From contig DNLN01000025.1 of assembly GCA_003488465.1 (NCBI GenBank), positions 1 to 6,599 of the forward strand: a stretch of DNA of 6,599 bases, in the 5' to 3' direction. This stretch comes from Sutterella sp. GTDB lineage: Bacteria > Pseudomonadota > Gammaproteobacteria > Burkholderiales > Burkholderiaceae_F. The position numbers and the translations under genes were made by a program. This document shows positions 1-6,599 of the stretch, in pieces; the stretch's first letter is position 1, and each line of letters opens with the position of its first letter. The notes beneath the pieces were generated by a model that searched no databases, was not told where the DNA came from, and saw only the letters and a program-made list of their open reading frames with translations.

Positions 1-2
1 GC

Positions 3-362
3 GGCACGCAGCTGCGCGAGACCGTGGACTTCCTTTACGGGGCCGGGGCCAAGGAAGTGCACATGCGCTCGGCCTGCCCGCCCATCATGTACAGCTGCAA
101 GTACCTGAACTTCTCCCGCGGCAACTCGGACATGGAGCTGATCGCCCGGCGCATCGTGCAGGAGCTCGAGGGCGACGAGGGGCAGCTGCATCTGGATGAA
201 TACGCCGACGCCAGCACCGAGCGCGGCAAGCGCCTTCTGAAGTGCATCTGCGAGAAGCTCGGCTTCGATTCCCTCGGCTTCCAGAGCCTGGAGGGCATTC
301 TTGAGGCGATCGGTCTTGACCGAGAATGCCTGTGCACCTACTGCTGGGACGGCAGGGAATAG
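3..362 (+). CDS. purF: Amidophosphoribosyltransferase, C-terminal part (5' end outside window)
   Basis: The frame is open from the window edge, and the last 119 codons are present, ending in TAG. PurF transfers ammonia from glutamine to PRPP, the first committed step of cytosolic purine synthesis. The first visible residues, GTQLRETVDFLYGAGAKEVH, match the segment just after the PRPP-binding loop (DDSIVRGTT in E. coli PurF). They are followed by the family's SACPPI segment, a SCKYLNFSRG stretch and MELIARRI. The protein ends in LCTYCWDGRE, a tail I associate with the PurF subfamily of Bacteroidetes, Clostridia and Desulfovibrio rather than with the longer E. coli type. The N-terminal glutaminase domain and catalytic Cys lie outside the window. 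Two hairpins downstream suggest this is the last gene of its transcript. A paralogous PRPP transferase is the main alternative. Confidence 0.85.
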   Translation, partial: GTQLRETVDFLYGAGAKEVHMRSACPPIMYSCKYLNFSRGNSDMELIARRIVQELEGDEGQLHLDEYADASTERGKRLLKCICEKLGFDSLGFQSLEGILEAIGLDRECLCTYCWDGRE

Positions 363-385
363 AGCTTTCCGTCAAGAAAATGAGA

Positions 386-429
386 AGAGACGCCCTTGGT
401 CGAGCAGTGAGGCCGGGGCGTTTCTCTTT
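386..429 (+). terminator. Probable intrinsic terminator after purF
   Basis: A hairpin starts 24 nt after the purF stop. Positions 386-395 (AGAGACGCCC) pair with 416-425, with one G-U pair, and an inner GGTC/GGCC stem (398-401 with 411-414) extends it. The 3' side runs into the T-rich but interrupted TTTCTCTTT, so termination may be only partial. Strand and position fit the purF end. Confidence 0.55.
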
Positions 430-446
430 GGCGAGCAAAAAAACGT

Positions 447-477
447 AGCCTGTGCCTAAAATTAGCAGGCTTTTTTT
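447..477 (+). terminator. Second hairpin with T-run
   Basis: AGCCTG (447-452) pairs with CAGGCT (466-471). An inner CTA/TAG stem (456-458 with 463-465) is separated by a three-base bulge. An uninterrupted T tract to 477 follows directly, which is the classic intrinsic terminator form. It probably backs up the weaker hairpin at 386-429. It lies only 20 nt before the ATG of the next gene, so it could instead act as an attenuator if that gene's transcript starts upstream. A TAAAAT at 457-462 resembles a -10 box, but no matching -35 is seen. Confidence 0.55.
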
Positions 478-496
478 GGATTTATTCGCTAATCCC

Positions 497-982
497 ATGC
501 AGACAACAAACGAACAGAACCCGGAGCCGAGCAAGGCTCCAGAGGAGCAGGCCTCAGGGCAGGCGGCTCCGGCAGCAGTGCAGCCCGAGGCCGACCGGAA
601 GGCTGACGACCGCAGCAAGCCTTCCGCCAAGGGGCATCGCCGGCACGGCAAGGGACAGGGCAGGCGTGAGCAGGCCAAGCCCTTGCCGCAGGGCGCTCTG
701 CAGGACGCAATCCGCGGCGCCGCAGGCGACTGGAAGGCGTTCCGCAATGAGCAGACGGCGCTCGGCCGCTCTCAGAAGACCTTCTGGCTCACCGAGGAGG
801 AGGCCTGGCGCGTTCGCAATTACATCCGCAAGATCCGTGAAAAGGCAGAGAAGCACCAGAAGCTTCTTGCCGAGCAGGCGCGGGGCAAGGCCGAACGCGA
901 GAAACAGGCTCTCGAAAAGTCTCTTGAGCAGGCCATGGCCGCGCCCAAGCAGGAACCCGAGGAGCCGGCTTCCGAGCAATGA
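497..982 (+). CDS. Hypothetical charged coiled-coil protein, coupled to AEC permease
   Basis: A 161-residue protein that I do not recognise. Residues 1-65 are rich in E, Q, A, P and K and look disordered, with a basic patch GHRRHGKGQGRR near 46-57. Residues 66-113 contain the only fold-like segment, including SQKTFWLTEEEAWRVRNYIR (92-111). Residues 112-147 are a K/E/Q/A-rich heptad-like stretch likely to form a coiled coil, and the tail is acidic. There is no signal peptide or membrane segment, so it is probably cytoplasmic. I chose ATG 497 because the longer GTG start at 452 lies inside the terminator hairpin and would code through its T-run. Neither start has a clear Shine-Dalgarno sequence. 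The stop overlaps the next start (ATGA at 979-982), which implies translational coupling. The basic patch could bind nucleic acid, but that is a guess. Confidence 0.7.
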   Translation: MQTTNEQNPEPSKAPEEQASGQAAPAAVQPEADRKADDRSKPSAKGHRRHGKGQGRREQAKPLPQGALQDAIRGAAGDWKAFRNEQTALGRSQKTFWLTEEEAWRVRNYIRKIREKAEKHQKLLAEQARGKAEREKQALEKSLEQAMAAPKQEPEEPASEQ

Positions 983-1926
983 GCCAGACGCTCCAGAGTT
1001 TTCTTTGGCTCATCTTTGACACCATCTGCCCGATCGCACTGGGCTACGTGCTGCATGTGCGCGGGATGGTGACGCGCCAGCAGACGCAGGCTCTCATCAC
1101 CTTCAACGTGCGGGTGATGTATACGCTTCTTGCATTCCTCGCGTTCTGGAGCCTGAACATCACGGCCGAACTCTTCTGGATCGTGCCGGTGTCGCTCTTG
1201 CTGTATTTCTTTCCGTACTGGATGGGCCTGGGCATGAGCCGCGGCGTGAAGGATCCGGCCGTGCGGGGACCCTTCGTCATCTCGGCCATGCTGGGCAACG
1301 TGGGTTCGCTGGGCGGTCTGATGGCCTTTCTGATCCTGGGACAGTCCGGTTTTGCCATCTCGCAGATCGCCACCGTGGTGCAGACGACGCTGCTTGTTGT
1401 GTACTGCTTTCCCGTCTGCCAGAAGTACAGCGATCTGGCGAGCGCCGGGAACTCTCCGGTGCGAAAGCGATCCCTGCGCGAGCTGCTTCTTACCTGGAAC
1501 CAGATCTCGGTGCTTGGCATGGTGCTGGGCGGCGTCTTTTCGGTCTGCGGAGTGCATCAGCCCGAGTCGCTCTCGACGGTCTTCAAGGCGCTCATCCACA
1601 TTGCATGCTGGATCAATTTCCTGCCCGTCGGCCTGCTCATCGACTTCAGGGCCGCGCTGCCCTACATGCGGCTTGTGAGCAGCCTTATCCCGATCAAGTT
1701 CCTTCTTGCTCCGGCCGTCATCTGGGCCGTTTGCGAGGTCGTGTTCAATGATCCGCTGATCACAAGGACTCTTGTCATCCTCGCGGCGACCCCCACGGCC
1801 ATCAATGCGGTGCTCTCAAGCGCGCTCTATGGACTGAAAAAGGACGTGGCAATTGCCTCGTTCATCGGCACGAGCGTGCTCTTCTGCCTGATCGTCGGCC
1901 CGGCGCTCTTTCTGCTTCTGTCCTGA
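979..1926 (+). CDS. AEC (auxin efflux carrier) family permease
   Basis: A 315-residue polytopic membrane protein of the AEC family (Mem_trans), whose bacterial members export or exchange small organic acids and related anions. The substrate here cannot be read from sequence. About ten hydrophobic segments are visible, near residues 8-26, 43-60, 66-83, 100-121, 128-146, 174-192, 207-224, 236-256, 262-282 and 289-313. Family marks are GNVGSLGG (106-113) in the N-terminal half and the C-terminal PTAINAVLSSALYG segment (272-285) before KKDVAIAS. Length is typical for the family (about 300-320). The central loop (about 147-172) is basic, which suits a cytoplasmic loop between two five-helix halves. 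The start overlaps the upstream stop as ATGA, and GAGGAG at 959-964 is rather distant, so coupling to the upstream gene is likely. The gene converges on the YbiI-like gene with only 27 bp between stops and no clear terminator. Confidence 0.88.
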   Translation: MSQTLQSFLWLIFDTICPIALGYVLHVRGMVTRQQTQALITFNVRVMYTLLAFLAFWSLNITAELFWIVPVSLLLYFFPYWMGLGMSRGVKDPAVRGPFVISAMLGNVGSLGGLMAFLILGQSGFAISQIATVVQTTLLVVYCFPVCQKYSDLASAGNSPVRKRSLRELLLTWNQISVLGMVLGGVFSVCGVHQPESLSTVFKALIHIACWINFLPVGLLIDFRAALPYMRLVSSLIPIKFLLAPAVIWAVCEVVFNDPLITRTLVILAATPTAINAVLSSALYGLKKDVAIASFIGTSVLFCLIVGPALFLLLS

Positions 1927-1953
1927 AGGCAGCCCGAGGCGCAATCTGCGGCA

Positions 1954-2220
1954 TCAGCGCAGCTGGCTGTCCTTGGAGCCGCGGCGGTTGAAGAGGGCGT
2001 GAGGCCCTTGGGTCCTGTCCAGAGCCTCCTGGCAGCGGATGCACAGGCGCACGCCAGGCAGCGCCTTGCGGCGTCCCTCGGGAATCGGCTCTCCGCACTC
2101 TTCGCAGTGCGTGAGCGAAATGCCCGTATGCAGGTTTCGTCTTGCCCGGGCGATTTCGTCGTTGACCGTATCCTCGATCTGTTCGTTGACGGCGTTGTCG
2201 CCCGCCCATCCGACTGCCAT
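1954..2220 (-). CDS. ybiI: DksA/TraR-type zinc-finger protein, YbiI-like
   Basis: An 88-residue protein, the same length as E. coli YbiI as I recall it, and matching over most of its length, including GWA-D-AVNEQI at the N-terminus, the PGVRLCI segment and the C-terminal NRRGSKDSQLR. A C4 zinc finger is formed by Cys39, Cys42, Cys60 and Cys63 (CEECGEPIP, then LCIRC). The family is related to DksA, which binds in the RNA polymerase secondary channel. This short form lacks the long N-terminal coiled coil of DksA, so a DksA-like action is unproven, and YbiI itself is poorly characterised. Start ATG 2220 is supported by AAGGAGAG at 2225-2232, well spaced. It lies 22 nt after the stop of the SFPD-repeat gene on the same strand, so the two are probably co-transcribed. 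Confidence 0.93.
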   Translation of the reverse strand: MAVGWAGDNAVNEQIEDTVNDEIARARRNLHTGISLTHCEECGEPIPEGRRKALPGVRLCIRCQEALDRTQGPHALFNRRGSKDSQLR

Positions 2221-2224
2221 GGCG

Positions 2225-2232
2225 CTCTCCTT
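2225..2232 (-). promoter_or_regulatory. Ribosome binding site of ybiI-like gene
   Basis: AAGGAGAG on the minus strand, with the AGGAG core 6 nt before ATG 2220. It lies within the 22-nt gap after the upstream stop, so ybiI can be translated on its own from a shared transcript. Confidence 0.75.
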
Positions 2233-2242
2233 GAGATTGCCG

Positions 2243-2566
2243 TCAGGGCAGGCCGGGGAAGGAATTCACGTACTGGATCTTCACATCCGGGAATGAGTTG
2301 ACGAACTGCACCTTGGTGTCCGGGAAGGAGTTCACGAACTGCCATTTGCCGCACTTGTCCGGGAACGAATTGACAACCTTCACCTTGAGGTCAGGAAACG
2401 AGCTGACGACCTGCACCTTGATGTCGGGAAATGAGTTCACGACCTGGATCTTGCCGTAGAGCTTCTTGCCGTTGTATGTGCAGCTGCCGCCGACTCTGCC
2501 GGCCTGGGCGGCCGTTACGGCAAAAAGGCCGAGCGTGACGGCAAGTGCCAAAGATCGAATGCGCAT
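2243..2566 (-). CDS. Exported SFPD-repeat protein, 7(1) septoil knot-like
   Basis: A 107-residue protein. Residues 1-22 are a Sec signal peptide: basic MRIR, a hydrophobic core, then AAQA with predicted cleavage before Gly23. The mature part is almost entirely repeats of about 11 residues around SFPD, starting at residues 45, 56, 67, 80, 91 and 102. Typical units are VVNSFPDIKVQ, VVSSFPDLKVK and FVNSFPDTKVQ. One unit carries a two-residue insertion (DKCGKWQ), and the chain ends in NSFPGLP. A leading SCTYNGKKLYGK block precedes them. Cys29 and Cys72 could form a disulfide after export. From memory, this pattern matches the 7(1) septoil knot (Septknot) family, small beta proteins predicted to be tied in a 7_1 knot. 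Its function is unknown to me. I chose ATG 2566 over an upstream ATG because it gives a clean signal peptide; the site before it (AGAGAGAAAGAG) is purine-rich but lacks a strong Shine-Dalgarno. It heads a likely operon with ybiI. Confidence 0.8.
   Translation of the reverse strand: MRIRSLALAVTLGLFAVTAAQAGRVGGSCTYNGKKLYGKIQVVNSFPDIKVQVVSSFPDLKVKVVNSFPDKCGKWQFVNSFPDTKVQFVNSFPDVKIQYVNSFPGLP
2246..2452 (-). repeat. Tandem coding repeat, about 33 bp period
   Basis: Six diverged copies of an 11-codon unit, visible on the plus strand as recurring GGGAA(C/T/G)GA(A/G)TT blocks, encode the SFPD repeats. Spacing is 33 bp except for one 39-bp step where KCGKW adds two codons. The third positions differ between copies, so this is an old, selected protein repeat rather than a recent DNA expansion. 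Confidence 0.8.
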
Positions 2567-2646
2567 CTCTTTCTCTCTGAAAAGTCTCGGATGCTGCACA
2601 TTTTAAGATCATTCCCGCAGAGCGTTCTGCGCAGCGCTTGTGCACA

Positions 2647-2785
2647 TCACAGGGCGGGAATGAATCTTTCGATGAGGGACCTGCCGGAGAATTCCAGAGT
2701 CTCGATGGCCTCAATGCGCTGGAGCCGGAAATGTCCGTTGGAAGGAATGACGTAAAGCGTCGCGCCGCCCGTGAGGGGCGCTCAT
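2647..2785 (-). pseudogene. Short coding-like frame, probably frameshifted small gene or remnant
   Basis: On the minus strand, codons ending in TGA at 2647-2649 read TGGATLYVIPSNGHFRLQRI, then EAIETLEFSGRSLIERFIPA and a final L. Codon third positions are mostly G or C, as in the real genes here. The frame has no ATG, GTG or TTG start. An ATG at 2783-2785 sits one frame off, and adding one base to the G run at 2775-2778 would join them into a 46-residue product starting MSAPLTGGATLYV. It is therefore either a frameshifted gene, a base-call error in a homopolymer, or a decayed end of a longer gene. There is no convincing Shine-Dalgarno before the ATG. I recognise no family. It lies 80 nt upstream of the SFPD-repeat gene on the same strand. 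Confidence 0.35.
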
Positions 2786-2874
2786 GGATTATTTCGCTCG
2801 TCCCGTGATAAGGAACGTGGTTTGCCAGGAGCGATCGAACGGCGAGTCCGGCAGTTTTTGTGTTGCGAAAGCTC

Positions 2875-2903
2875 TTGCGAAAAAAAAGCAAGATCTGTAG
2901 AAT
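2875..2903 (+). promoter_or_regulatory. Sigma-70 promoter of tRNA-Ser
   Basis: TTGCGA (2875-2880), a 17-bp spacer with an A tract, and TAGAAT (2898-2903) match the consensus well. The predicted start is near 2910, giving about 74 nt of 5' leader to be removed by RNase P. The G+C-rich GCGC just after the -10 box is the kind of discriminator seen at stringently controlled stable-RNA promoters. Confidence 0.65.
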
Positions 2904-2983
2904 GCGCAATCTCTTCGTTGGCAGAGACGCCTTTCCGGCTGTCGAGATAACCCGACTCCGGATCTAATAAACGAAGACCCACT

Positions 2984-3073
2984 GGAAGGGTGGCAGAGTG
3001 GTTTAATGTACCGCCCTGGAAAGGCGGCGTATCCAATCGGGTACCGAGAGTTCGAATCTCTCCCCTTCCGCCA
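2984..3073 (+). tRNA. tRNA-Ser (anticodon GGA)
   Basis: A full cloverleaf with encoded CCA. The acceptor stem GGAAGGG (2984-2990) pairs with CCCTTCC (3063-3069), followed by discriminator G and CCA (3071-3073). The D arm is TGGCAGAGTGGTTTAATG. The anticodon stem CCGCC/GGCGG encloses loop CTGGAAA, giving anticodon GGA, which reads UCC and UCU. The long variable arm (GTATCC aatc GGGTAC) is the class II feature of serine tRNAs. The T arm is GAGAG TTCGAAT CTCTC. It stands alone with its own promoter and terminator. Confidence 0.97.
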
Positions 3074-3082
3074 GGACACCAG

Positions 3083-3115
3083 ATCCCGCAGAACATCCAT
3101 CTGCGGGATTTTTTT
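3083..3115 (+). terminator. Intrinsic terminator after tRNA-Ser
   Basis: A perfect 10-bp stem, ATCCCGCAGA (3083-3092) with TCTGCGGGAT (3100-3109), around a 7-nt loop, running directly into a T tract to 3115. It begins 10 nt after the tRNA CCA, so the tRNA is transcribed as a single-gene unit. Confidence 0.92.
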
Positions 3116-3144
3116 ATAGCAACGAATTAAGACATTTGATTTTT

Positions 3145-3173
3145 TTAACGGATTTTTAACTGCTTACTATTAT
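3145..3173 (+). promoter_or_regulatory. Candidate promoter of DUF362 gene
   Basis: TTAACG (3145-3150), 17 bp, then TATTAT (3168-3173), in the only A+T-rich stretch between the tRNA terminator and the gene. The predicted start is near 3180, leaving a leader of about 140 nt. The -35 match is moderate. Confidence 0.4.
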
Positions 3174-3190
3174 TCCGCTTTGTCCCCGCA

Positions 3191-3296
3191 CGTGGTAAGA
3201 ATGGGCAGATCTTTGCCACGAATTCCGAGGCTAACATTCGGATTTTTGGAGATAATGCTGAAATCGGCTGCGTGCCGCCGCTTCGGCTGTGCAGCC
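3191..3296 (+). promoter_or_regulatory. Structured 5' leader of DUF362 gene
   Basis: Three hairpins lie in series upstream of the gene. CGTGGTAAG (3191-3199) pairs with 3212-3220, including G-U pairs. TCCGA (3224-3228) pairs with TCGGA (3238-3242) and is followed by five Ts, like a weak terminator. GGCTGC (3266-3271) pairs with GCAGCC (3291-3296), with an inner GCCG/CGGC stem, and ends 8 nt before the GGAG ribosome site at 3305-3308. I recognise no known riboswitch class. A regulatory role (attenuation or control of ribosome access) is inference from shape alone. Confidence 0.35.
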
Positions 3297-3319
3297 TCTT
3301 TCATGGAGCAGTAGCAGCA

Positions 3320-4294
3320 ATGTCTCAAATCGAAATTCTCGGAAAAAAGGTCACTCAGAAAAACACGCCGGTGATCGGCTCGAAGCTTGTTGACGGCACT
3401 GCCGAAGGCACGACCGCCAAGGTGTTCTTCTCGCGGCACATCGATGCCGAGCACCTCATCAAGCTCTATTCCCTTGTCAATGACAGCATCTACGGCAAGG
3501 TGGCCATCAAGCTGCATACCGGCGAGCAGCACGGTCCCAACATTCTGCCGCGCGACCTTGTGAAGGCGTTCCAGAGTCAGGTTCCCAACAGTGCGATCGT
3601 CGAGACGAACACGCTTTATCAGGGCGACCGCTATACGACCGAGGATCACCGCAAGACGCTCGAAGTGAACGGCTGGACGTTCTGTCCGGTTGACATTCTC
3701 GACGAGGAGGGCGGCGTGGATCTGCCCGTGCGCGGCGGCAAGCATCTCAAGTTCGTGACCATGGGCGGACATCTCGTCAACTACGACTCGCTCATCGTGC
3801 TCACGCACTTCAAGGGGCACGCCATGGGCGGTTTCGGCGGATCGATGAAGAATATCGCCATCGGCTGCGCTTCCGGCCAGGTCGGCAAGCGTCAGGTGCA
3901 CGGCGTCGTGGAGAATATGCCCGAGAACTACCTTGAGTGGCCGATGAAGGAGTACTTCATGGAGCTCATGGCCGAGTCGGCCAAGGCAACCATTGATTAC
4001 TTCGGCAAGAAGGTTGTGTTCATCAATGTGATGCGCCGCATGTCGGTTGACTGTGACTGCGCGGGCATCCATGCCGCTGAGCCCACGATTCCCGACATCG
4101 GCATCGTTGCCTCGACGGACATCCTGGCAGCCGACCAGGCCTGCGTGGACATGGTCTACAGCCTCACGCACGAGGAGAACCACGACCTCAAGGAGCGCAT
4201 CGAGACGAGGCACGGCCTGCGCCAGCTCTCCCGCATGAATGAACTCAAGATGGGCAATCCCCGGTATGAACTGATCGACATCGACGCGCTCTAG
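3320..4294 (+). CDS. DUF362 domain protein (putative Fe-S centre protein)
   Basis: A 324-residue protein filled by one DUF362 domain, with no membrane segment or signal peptide. Family marks are VAIKLHTGEQ (61-70), HFKGHAMGGFGGSMKN (163-178) with Cys183 soon after, and DCDCAGIHAAEPTIPDIGIVA (244-264) followed by STDILAADQACVDMVY. In annotated relatives these proteins are called uncharacterised Fe-S centre proteins. Cys183, Cys245, Cys247 and Cys275 with nearby His residues are candidate ligands, but the reaction is unknown. Many relatives carry a C-terminal CxxCxxC ferredoxin segment, which this protein lacks. I chose ATG 3320 because GGAG (3305-3308) precedes it; an upstream ATG at 3272 would add 16 residues that lie in the leader hairpin. 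The gene stands alone between its promoter and terminator. Confidence 0.88.
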   Translation: MSQIEILGKKVTQKNTPVIGSKLVDGTAEGTTAKVFFSRHIDAEHLIKLYSLVNDSIYGKVAIKLHTGEQHGPNILPRDLVKAFQSQVPNSAIVETNTLYQGDRYTTEDHRKTLEVNGWTFCPVDILDEEGGVDLPVRGGKHLKFVTMGGHLVNYDSLIVLTHFKGHAMGGFGGSMKNIAIGCASGQVGKRQVHGVVENMPENYLEWPMKEYFMELMAESAKATIDYFGKKVVFINVMRRMSVDCDCAGIHAAEPTIPDIGIVASTDILAADQACVDMVYSLTHEENHDLKERIETRHGLRQLSRMNELKMGNPRYELIDIDAL

Positions 4295-4319
4295 TCCTAG
4301 TCCGCGGCAAATAGAAAAT

Positions 4320-4358
4320 GGCGTCGGTTCGGAGCGATTCCGGATCGACGTCTTTTTT
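4320..4358 (+). terminator. Intrinsic terminator after DUF362 gene
   Basis: Positions 4320-4334 pair with 4338-4352 in one unbroken stem that includes several G-U pairs, with a tight loop, followed by six Ts (4353-4358). It starts 25 nt after the DUF362 stop. On the minus strand the G-U pairs become A-C mismatches, so it serves mainly the plus strand and is a weaker end for the convergent U32 gene, whose stop is at 4370. Confidence 0.88.
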
Positions 4359-4369
4359 GGTGCGCCTCG

Positions 4370-6295
4370 TCAGGCAAGGCTGATCGTCATTTCGCAAGCC
4401 CGACAGTCAAACCGCGCGATCAGGGTTCGCCCCTTCGGGTCGATGAGCTTCATGGGTTCTGGCTTCAAGTGCCCGCCGTTCAGTTTCTTGAAGCGCTCCT
4501 TTGCCTGCGGATCCCCCTTGACCATTTTCGGACACAGGCCAAGCGTGTGCCGCACGCAGTGGCGGCAGCGCATGAGTTCTGCCGTCTCAAGCGAAACGCC
4601 CTTCGGATTGCTTTCAAAAGCGGCTTCGATCGATTTGACGCCGTGCTCGCTCCAGAAACTTCGGGCCGCTGCGTTGGCAACGTTGCCGTGCCAGTCGAGG
4701 GAATCGAAGGGCGCGGCTGCGGCGATGGGAGCGAGCAGCCGCGGAGCGGGCTTGCGGCAGATGCGTTTTTCGAGCTCAGTCAGGGCGGCCCTGCGCATGC
4801 GGTTTGCAATCGAGGCGGGAATGAAGGGCACCGTGCCGGCAGGCTCGACCGTGATGGCACGGGCGGCAAAGATGGTCTCGCCGGTCTTGGCGAGGTTTCC
4901 CCGCAGGCTCTCGAGTCCCTTGACGGGATCCTTTGCGGCCTGGGCGCAGAACGGCTCCTTCACGAGGGCGGTCTCGCCCGCCGCATGCGCGCTGAGCGAT
5001 ACAGACTGCCGGTCGGACGAGAGCACGAAGTCCACGGGAATGGTTCGGCGGGCGCTTTCGCCCTCAAGCGCCTTGTCAAAGGCCCTGTCGCGGGTTCGGT
5101 TGAGCCGGGCGCCGGGAGCAAGATCCGGATGCCGGGAAAGGGAATCGCGCGGATACAGGCGCTGTCTGCTGCCCGGGAGTTCCTCGGCCCTGTTGATCAT
5201 GAGGCCGACTACTTCTCCGTGGGAGTCCGTGTAGATGAGGCCGTCGCCGTTGGCGATCGGCTCGCAAATGCGCACGTCCAGGCTCTGAGGCGGCCTCGTG
5301 TTGAGGCAGAGAACCTGTCCGACGGGCTTGCCGGTGCTCTTTGGCGTATCCAGTTCGGCAATCATCGGCTGACGGCCGCGCACGAAATAGTCGGTGCTGC
5401 CGCGATGAAAGGTCTTCTGCGGATCGGGCGTGAAGGAAAACGCCGTGGCGCCAAGGCTTGAGGCCTGCCAGCCCTCGGCCGCATGCTTTTCAAGGAGGGC
5501 GTCGATTTTGCGGCGGTAGTAGGCCGTGATGTTCTTCACGTAGGCGGCGTCCTTGAGGCGGCCCTCGATCTTGAAGCTTGAGACGCCGGCCCGAACAAGG
5601 TCTTCGAGGTTCCCGCTCTGGTCATTGTCCCGCAGGCTGAGCACGTGCTTGCGGTGCGCAACCTCGCGCCCGGCGAAATCAATCACCTGATAGGGAAGGC
5701 GGCAGGGTTGGGCGCACTGGCCGCGGTTTGCGCTTCGGCCGCTCTCGACGCAGGACAGGTAGCAGCGGCCCGAGTAGGAGACGCACAGCGCTCCGTGCAC
5801 GAAGAACTCGATGCGGGCCCGCGGCATCGCCGCGCGGCAGGCTGCGATCTCTTCGAGCGTGAGCTCGCGGGCGAGCACCACCTGGGAAAATCCGACGGCA
5901 TCGAGAAAAGCGGCCTTTTCGGGCGTGCGGATGTCGCACTGGGTGGAGGCGTGGATTTCCAGGGGCGGCAGATCGGTCTTCAAAAGTCCCATGTCCTGGA
6001 TGATGAGTCCGTCCACGCCCGCCTCATGGGCGGACCAGGCGATGGCGTTCGCCTGCTCGAGCTCCCCGTCAAAGAGGATCGTGTTGAGCGTCAGATAGAT
6101 GCGGGCGCGGTACCTGTGGGCATAGGCGGCAAGCTTTTCGATGTCCGAGAAGCTGTTGCCTGCGTCGGCTCTCGCGCCGAATCCGGGGCCGCCGATGTAG
6201 ACGGCGTCCGCCCCGTGCCCGATGGCGGCCATGCCGACAGCGCAGTCCCTTGCGGGCGCAAGCAGTTCAAGCGGTGCGAACGGAGTCGGCGGCAC
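4370..6295 (-). CDS. rlhA: U32 family protein, RlhA-like 23S rRNA hydroxylation enzyme
   Basis: A 641-residue cytoplasmic protein of the U32 'peptidase' family. Its length and layout match E. coli RlhA (YdcP, about 650 residues), which makes 5-hydroxycytidine at 23S rRNA C2501 using a prephenate-dependent pathway. The N-terminal TIM-barrel-like domain opens with LELLAPARD (8-16) and GADAVYIGGPGFGAR (28-42). The U32 signature is EFFVHGALCVSYSGRCYLS (163-181). Cys171, Cys178, Cys194 and Cys198 are the expected metal-cluster ligands. FKIEGRLKD and YVKNITAYYR follow, then a long C-terminal region ending in two more Cys groups (Cys577, Cys580, Cys588 and Cys631, Cys634). The GTG start has a strong AGGAGG 9 nt upstream that overlaps the stop of the preceding ankyrin gene, indicating an operon. 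TrhP-type tRNA hydroxylases are the alternative, but they are shorter (about 450 residues). Confidence 0.85.
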   Translation of the reverse strand: MPPTPFAPLELLAPARDCAVGMAAIGHGADAVYIGGPGFGARADAGNSFSDIEKLAAYAHRYRARIYLTLNTILFDGELEQANAIAWSAHEAGVDGLIIQDMGLLKTDLPPLEIHASTQCDIRTPEKAAFLDAVGFSQVVLARELTLEEIAACRAAMPRARIEFFVHGALCVSYSGRCYLSCVESGRSANRGQCAQPCRLPYQVIDFAGREVAHRKHVLSLRDNDQSGNLEDLVRAGVSSFKIEGRLKDAAYVKNITAYYRRKIDALLEKHAAEGWQASSLGATAFSFTPDPQKTFHRGSTDYFVRGRQPMIAELDTPKSTGKPVGQVLCLNTRPPQSLDVRICEPIANGDGLIYTDSHGEVVGLMINRAEELPGSRQRLYPRDSLSRHPDLAPGARLNRTRDRAFDKALEGESARRTIPVDFVLSSDRQSVSLSAHAAGETALVKEPFCAQAAKDPVKGLESLRGNLAKTGETIFAARAITVEPAGTVPFIPASIANRMRRAALTELEKRICRKPAPRLLAPIAAAAPFDSLDWHGNVANAAARSFWSEHGVKSIEAAFESNPKGVSLETAELMRCRHCVRHTLGLCPKMVKGDPQAKERFKKLNGGHLKPEPMKLIDPKGRTLIARFDCRACEMTISLA

Positions 6296-6304
6296 GGGGG
6301 GAGG

Positions 6305-6311
6305 CCTCCTA
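6305..6311 (-). promoter_or_regulatory. Ribosome binding site fixing the GTG start of the U32 gene
   Basis: TAGGAGG on the minus strand, 9 nt before GTG 6295. Its first three bases are the TAG stop of the ankyrin-repeat gene, so ribosomes ending there can reinitiate. It is the best argument for the GTG start. Confidence 0.85.
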
Positions 6312-6599
6312 CTTGAGTTTGGCGCTTGGAATCAAGGCCAGCTTGGCGGGATCGGCGCACTTTTCGATTGCCAGGAACGAGGCGAGCTTCTCGTCGCCGG
6401 CCTTCTTGGCGGCATCAGCCGGGGACATGCCCTGGTCGTTGCACAGGTCGCGGAAGGCGCCGGCCTTCAAAAGCAGCATCACTGCCTCGCGGGACGGACG
6501 GCGGGCCGCCATGTAAAGGGGCGTGACGCCGCTTGCAGTGAGCACGTTCACGCGGGCGCCCTTTTTCAGAAAGAGCTTCATGATCTCGATGTGGCCGTT
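6309..6599 (-). CDS. Ankyrin-repeat protein, C-terminal part (5' end outside window)
   Basis: The frame runs to the window edge, so at least 96 C-terminal codons are present. The edge reads NGHIEIMKLFLKKGARVNVL, the second half of an ankyrin repeat. A complete repeat follows, with SGVTPLYMAARRPSREAVML and LLKAGA, and a degenerate one with GMSPADAAKKAGDEKLASFL. The tail, IEKCADPAKLALIPSAKLK, is not a repeat. Ankyrin repeats are protein-binding scaffolds, so the sequence does not reveal a partner. The in-frame ATG at 6581 lies inside a repeat and is not the true start. Its stop lies 13 nt before the U32 start and overlaps that gene's ribosome site, so the two genes are very likely co-transcribed. 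Any signal peptide would be in the missing part. Confidence 0.88.
   Translation of the reverse strand, partial: NGHIEIMKLFLKKGARVNVLTASGVTPLYMAARRPSREAVMLLLKAGAFRDLCNDQGMSPADAAKKAGDEKLASFLAIEKCADPAKLALIPSAKLK

Follow-up and report, generated by a model that had tools for sequence, protein, structure and literature searches.

How would a protein that leaves the cytoplasm through the general secretory (Sec) pathway come to be knotted, and why would a bacterium keep a gene for it? The question is raised by a short gene of Sutterella sp. (GenBank assembly GCA_003488465.1) on contig DNLN01000025.1, the forward-strand positions 1 to 6,599 of which were analysed here (the window, 6,599 nucleotides at full length). 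The protein encoded by this gene almost certainly belongs to a known family, the septoil knots. On balance, we lean towards reading it as a six-repeat, Sec-exported protein that forms a torus knot, likely of the 5_1 type, and is likely pinned by a Cys29–Cys72 disulfide; a role in exclusion is not a firm part of this reading.

The open reading frame runs on the minus strand from an ATG at 2566 to 2243 and comprises 107 codons and a stop. Read by eye, the N-terminus of the 107-residue precursor contains two arginines, the hydrophobic stretch LALAVTLGLFAV and TAAQA before G23, leaving a mature chain of 85 residues (G23 to 107). Both the chain length of about 85 residues and the clear Sec signal had been proposed in an earlier reading of the letters alone (the sequence-only reading), and both are borne out. 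Export of the protein via Sec is, on these features, very probable. In the mature part, comparison with the gene of a sister species, Sutterella isolate RUG068 (locus L008), by our own Nei-Gojobori script gave a nonsynonymous rate (dN) of 0.087 and a synonymous rate (dS) of 0.642. The ratio of about 0.14 indicates that the gene is under constraint.

The mature chain is built from repeats. SFP occurs at residues 45, 56, 67, 80, 91 and 102, five times as SFPD and once as SFPG, so that the six units of the sequence-only reading stand, and their uniform SFPD motif does not. When the mature chain was shuffled 200,000 times, six SFP were never reached and two were the maximum, ruling out a chance repeat. 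Self-identity of the chain exceeded 30% at lags 11 and 35 only, among lags 5 to 44. As the DNA contains a 96-nucleotide direct repeat that is 74% identical, the chain is, judging from its sequence, an internal duplication of a three-unit half. Codons vary among the six units, and the halves agree at 23 of 32 residues and share 12 of 32 codons; the repeat is therefore no fresh DNA duplication, and a recent duplication as its source was ruled out. Relatives with other unit numbers were also observed, namely five in P0005 (close to the window protein, with one unit fewer), seven in P0004 and four in L079:5977-6231.

Membership in the septoil-knot family, also put forward in the sequence-only reading, is almost certain. 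Q9PR55, a 7_1 knot (8iwa) and the most tangled of the protein knots with a solved structure to date, matches the window protein with an E value of 3.4e-14, or 6e-17 in a profile search, window residues 31-96 aligning to its residues 20-85. The annotation PF19647.5 is found on 120 of 120 relatives (the best 120 of 2652), and one among those listed is named "7(1) septoil knot domain". The Pfam profile check suggested with the sequence-only reading, run with version PF19647.4 (DUF6150), gave no match in the window protein; the same version also matched nothing in 41 genomes, 14 controls and 17 relatives. PF19647.4 was observed to fail on proteins marked PF19647.5, and the family model seems to have changed between versions. 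An NCBIfam scan gave no match over cut-off for the knot protein, and a scan for defence families found none. Window residues 10-107 match positions 6-103 of the 103 in phrog_6462 (E 1.3e-35), and a Leptospira-type prophage member matches the same profile (E 1.1e-48). On these matches, the septoil-knot family is PHROG 6462, a phage family of unknown function, nearly the whole profile of which is covered by the window protein. Open frames of up to 433 amino acids were seen, which may be domain fusions.

Is the chain knotted, and in which way? The AlphaFold2 model of the mature chain has six strands and a predicted local distance difference test score (pLDDT) of 94.0. In Foldseek, its only fold matches were chains of Q9PR55 (8iwa, 8iwb, 8iwc, 8jrm, 8w68), and a BFVD search with the model gave no match under E 0.001. 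The superposition is partial, with template modelling (TM) scores of 0.55-0.64, model residues 7-78 lying on chain residues 15-89 and 43-50% identity over the aligned part. The structure-prediction check thus returned the fold of the solved members and an incomplete fit to the 7_1 structure. The window protein resembles Q9PR55 (UU089.1) from Ureaplasma in repeat motif, register and fold; unlike it, the window protein continues into an additional C-terminal strand, which ends in SFPG, whereas Q9PR55 has no cysteine at the place of Cys72, the place of Cys29 lying outside the alignment. It is very improbable that the chain is an unknotted open beta-solenoid or sheet and its knot a prediction artefact. 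Models by AlphaFold may show one chain segment passing through another (PMC10672856), and the knot type in the window protein is judged from relatives and a predicted model. However, the same source allows that the 5_1 and 7_1 cases in question could be genuine, the aligned part is 43-50% identical to a protein with a solved 7_1 knot, and the sole fold matches are the solved Q9PR55 entries. That the window protein is knotted in some form is highly likely.

The type of knot is less certain. Q9PR55 (89 amino acids) was predicted to form a 7_1 knot with its core at 27-83, and P73136 (112 amino acids) a 5_1 knot with its core at 45-94 (Brems et al., 2022, PMC9278004, excerpt); the knot of Q9PR55 was later solved (PMC13352647, PMC11223836). 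The protein of locus L034 (Synechocystis salina) has 112 residues, a signal, the cysteine pair and six units. Over 112 columns it is 54% identical to the window protein, and the only gap between the two, five residues long, falls in the signal peptide. P73136, which we take to be a Synechocystis protein, is presumably like L034. It resembles the six-unit exported form in its length of 112 residues and its knotted core from residue 45, and phmmer aligns L034 residue 45 to 8iwa residue 27, equal to both core starts given in the excerpt (PMC9278004). A P73136-like core in the window protein would span residues 40-89. Because P73136, the relative that fits this length and core start, was predicted to be 5_1, this type is the better bet over 7_1, with about an even chance of being right. 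A true 7_1 knot, wound as in Q9PR55 and proposed by the sequence-only reading, is doubtful. The window protein does have counterparts to the repeat units of the Q9PR55 core, and the superposition spans model residues 7 to 78; but the published relative of fitting length is a predicted 5_1, the Q9PR55 core stops six residues before the C-terminus, where the window protein adds a strand, and the TM scores do not exceed 0.64. When the seven-unit P0004 was folded on a 62-row alignment, the first six strands were confident and the last unit had a pLDDT of 53, few alignment rows covering the extra unit. By these models, six units seem to complete the structure. The idea that each extra unit adds one more winding, making the seven-unit relative a 9_1 knot, is unsupported by the P0004 model.

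The two cysteines lie at residues 29 and 72, as the sequence-only reading had stated. The family alignment holds 206 sequences, of which 120 are listed database relatives and 86 are further ones, including the window protein. Cysteine stands at both places in 165 of them, at neither in 35 and at just one in 6. The six comprise truncated or short versions of a single Sutterella contig (L003, counted twice, and the short copy of L008), one copy cut by a contig end (L007), one shortened by start choice (L051) and a true single, the second L043 copy; the 35 include pieces (L080, L081 twice, L082) as well as L074, L075 and L077. All 120 database rows, which represent the nearest relatives, carry both cysteines, so that the informative rows are those from loci. 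When 105 locus rows were scored by alignment column, 64 had both cysteines, 41 neither and none only one. In a tree built without the two columns, each cysteine changes state three times; independent pairs of changes number two on well-supported branches, which agree, and three over all branches, too few for significance. The trees omit L001 (the window), L002, L003, L007, L051, L080, L081, L082, the short L008 copy, the second L043 copy and L145. Scoring by text pattern on a tree with the cysteine columns kept flagged 6 of 105 rows as having one cysteine, and these were excluded from the change count. On reading, L062 and L152 are false flags, L139 has one shifted cysteine, and L074, L075 and L077 have an extra C-terminal one. 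These last three proteins (L074:1894-2271, L075:5800-6177, L077:5899-6276) lack Cys72 and have one cysteine near the N-terminal part and one in a C-terminal FPGCGK, perhaps an alternative disulfide pairing.

Five rows judged by eye to be signal-less (L055, L067, L142, L143, L167) have neither cysteine. Four of the five fall in one group whose exported members also lack the pair; L142 is identical to L143, and the start assigned to L055 is uncertain. Exported members without the pair are common in Negativicutes, and the disulfide is therefore not needed for the fold. The both-or-neither pattern fits a disulfide formed outside the cytoplasm. The disulfide of the sequence-only reading is thus backed indirectly, by a pair kept or lost together in 105 of 105 rows over only about three independent changes, and a Cys29–Cys72 bond is probable. 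The window genome gave three matches to DsbA-fold proteins. DsbB had no match in it and is present in 4 of 10 genomes of the genus, and VKOR was found in 0 of those 10.

How widespread is the gene? Counting the genome of the window in every case, it was found in 2 of 10 genus genomes, 6 of 67 family genomes and 2 of 369 in the class sample; the copy studied here counts as a rare accessory gene. Loci carrying it (75) are spread across many phyla, and phylum labels need 17 changes on the 105-row tree with the cysteine columns kept, the least possible being 8, with few well-supported branches. In both genus genomes with the knot gene, the next gene downstream is of the TraR/DksA zinc-finger type. 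The pair is duplicated in RUG068: one knot gene is whole, two units remain of the other, which neighbours a truncated zinc-finger gene, and a gene of phage family phrog_15286 sits between the two pair copies. The short copy (L008:2514-2699 on the plus strand, 62 amino acids, beside 2726-2830) offers a natural trial of the smallest version. The window copy was not found within a prophage: its family-matched neighbours are membrane-transport, zinc-finger, DUF362, peptidase U32, ankyrin and tRNA-Ser genes. Its surroundings, unlike the phage setting of PHROG 6462, are ordinary genes, and the 6.6 kb contig contains no phage structural gene. Nothing general is conserved in the neighbourhood across phyla, the biggest clusters among 82 loci comprising six loci each, one DEAD-box-like (Parvularculaceae and one Bacteroidales) and one macrodomain-like (Negativicutes only). 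In Negativicutes loci L050, L053, L060, L062, L068, L080 and L140, macrodomain-like genes and, in a subset of these loci, ADP-ribosylglycohydrolase-like genes, all named by eye, lie nearby. A very diverged second paralogue (L043:6313-6654) lies immediately downstream of a normal member.

Table 1. Features of the window discussed in the text.
Feature	Coordinates	Strand	Basis
Septoil-knot family gene, 107-residue precursor and stop	2243..2566	minus	Open reading frame; sequence relatives; AlphaFold2 fold; phrog_6462, E 1.3e-35
Predicted Sec signal peptide, residues 1-22, putative cleavage after AQA	2501..2566	minus	Read by eye; signal-like N-termini in most relatives
Predicted mature chain, residues 23-107, six strands	2246..2500	minus	AlphaFold2, pLDDT 94.0
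Cys29 codon, ahead of first half	2480..2482	minus	Sequence; family alignment
Unit 1, residues 38-48 (GKIQVVNSFPD)	2423..2455	minus	AlphaFold2 model and repeat analysis
Unit 2, residues 49-59	2390..2422	minus	AlphaFold2 model and repeat analysis
Unit 3, residues 60-70	2357..2389	minus	AlphaFold2 model and repeat analysis
Cys72 codon, ahead of second half	2351..2353	minus	Sequence; family alignment
Unit 4, residues 71-83, longer by two residues (KCGKWQ), start of second half	2318..2356	minus	AlphaFold2 model and repeat analysis
Unit 5, residues 84-94	2285..2317	minus	AlphaFold2 model and repeat analysis
Unit 6, residues 95-105, SFPG at end	2252..2284	minus	AlphaFold2 model and repeat analysis
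Two 96-nucleotide halves (2256-2351 and 2361-2456), direct repeat, 74% identical, 105 nucleotides apart	2256..2456	minus	DNA repeat comparison
TraR/DksA-type C4 zinc-finger gene, 88 residues, downstream, co-oriented with knot gene	1954..2220	minus	phrog_54; NCBIfam TIGR02419 (phage/conjugal plasmid TraR family) and NF008243 over cut-off
Transporter gene	979-1926	plus	Pfam Mem_trans just under cut-off
tRNA-Ser (GGA), upstream neighbour, near knot gene in sister species too	2984..3073	plus	
DUF362 gene	3272-4294	plus	
Peptidase U32 gene	4370-6295	minus	

What do the relatives in phages suggest? A scan of viral contigs gave 31 loci carrying the family, and in 27 of them tail, packaging or lysis genes (clusters named from PHROGs) neighbour the knot gene. 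Neighbours were scanned against PHROGs in seven of these (L139, L142, L146, L147, L149, L165, L167), the other 20 rest on BLAST clusters, and L137, L138, L140 and L141 were left out of the neighbour scan. The commonest context, akin to Leptospira prophages, is that of 18 contigs of a single type, on all 18 of which the knot gene lies downstream of a baseplate-hub gene and upstream of a baseplate-wedge gene. A 120-residue gene (phrog_5564, unknown function; gp25-like by eye) ends 3 bp before the knot gene in 17 of 17 mapped, L145 having been mapped by tblastn alone. The next baseplate-wedge gene begins 4 bp before the knot-gene end in the cases listed, the overlap in L148 being established by reading. 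A Leptospira weilii plasmid record, with a protein 98% identical to that of L151, annotates the same gene order. In L165 and L146, the knot gene lies between lysis and terminase genes, and L152 and L166 share the terminase side of L165 by cluster. Terminase genes adjoin it in L142 and L143, a baseplate-hub gene in L139 and L147, and tail-protein and tape-measure genes in L167. A search of 50,697 annotated phage records gave no match with the window protein, an L165 protein or an L149 protein, and a plasmid search gave three records carrying the family. The excerpted main text of a study on transposable Leptospira prophages (PMC8705779) makes no mention of a moron, cargo, a signal peptide or SFPD, and an open-access literature search found no paper linking septoil knots with phages.

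The tight packing with baseplate genes on the 18 contigs, the order annotated in the L. weilii record and the adjoining hub gene on two more contigs could mean that the knot protein is a baseplate or tail part in phages and the window copy a leftover tail gene. This is unlikely, in that a signal peptide is out of place on a component assembled in the cytoplasm, no such tail genes lie near most genome loci, and outside the Leptospira-type context the knot gene opposes the nearest phage-family gene in 8 of 8 loci listed. Such counter-orientation is as expected of an independently expressed moron. A history of the knot gene as cargo is evenly balanced between right and wrong. Lambda bor and T4 spackle, which we take to be phage morons with exported products, share with it a small exported product and, in L165 and L146, the position of a counter-oriented gene between lysis and terminase genes; no sequence relation to the window protein is claimed. 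A late-expressed lysis helper active in the periplasm might be suspected from the distances to Rz-like spanin and endolysin genes (35 bp and 468 bp in L146, about 1.0 kb and 1.5 kb in L165). Yet spanin and endolysin genes are already present there, the knot gene runs opposite to both, and no lysis gene is among the family matches of the window, so that this role is very improbable.

Returning to the exported, disulfide-pinned knot, a mechanism can be proposed. Sec passes unfolded chains, and the precursor would therefore cross it unfolded, the knot being tied after export, outside the cytoplasm. The duplicated three-unit half and a closing strand would close at six units, as in the predicted structure, and a disulfide from residue 29 to 72, just ahead of the two halves, would keep the knot closed. 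As Hsu and colleagues are said to have reported in 2024, Q9PR55 is resistant to unfolding and proteolysis; knot and disulfide together may likewise make the present chain very hard to unfold or digest, suited to the envelope. A rare accessory gene here that may be prophage cargo in some relatives likely has a job that benefits a mobile element in the host envelope. For a digest-proof envelope protein that is phage-carried and under constraint, a role in exclusion or shielding is suggested, with superinfection exclusion as a first, speculative bet. It is similarly tentative that the fold is a mobile, phage-spread periplasmic device for shutting out rival phages, locked by a disulfide after Sec, with the window gene as a domesticated copy; the breadth of that proposal, in which torus-knot proteins, mostly exported, are encoded in the tail, packaging and lysis regions of at least four kinds of phage, is an equally long shot.

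What would the finding mean for the septoil-knot family? If that last proposal is true, the most complex knotted fold known would be a mobile, phage-spread periplasmic device. No stated function of the septoil-knot fold was met in the literature, and the prophage contexts offer a lead on it. The family also holds its own natural controls: some members have the cysteine pair or the signal and others lack it, and members of 2, 4, 5, 6 and 7 units exist. With these, the 85-residue chain, a predicted exported knot, makes knotting after Sec, without ATP-driven chaperones, a question for the bench.
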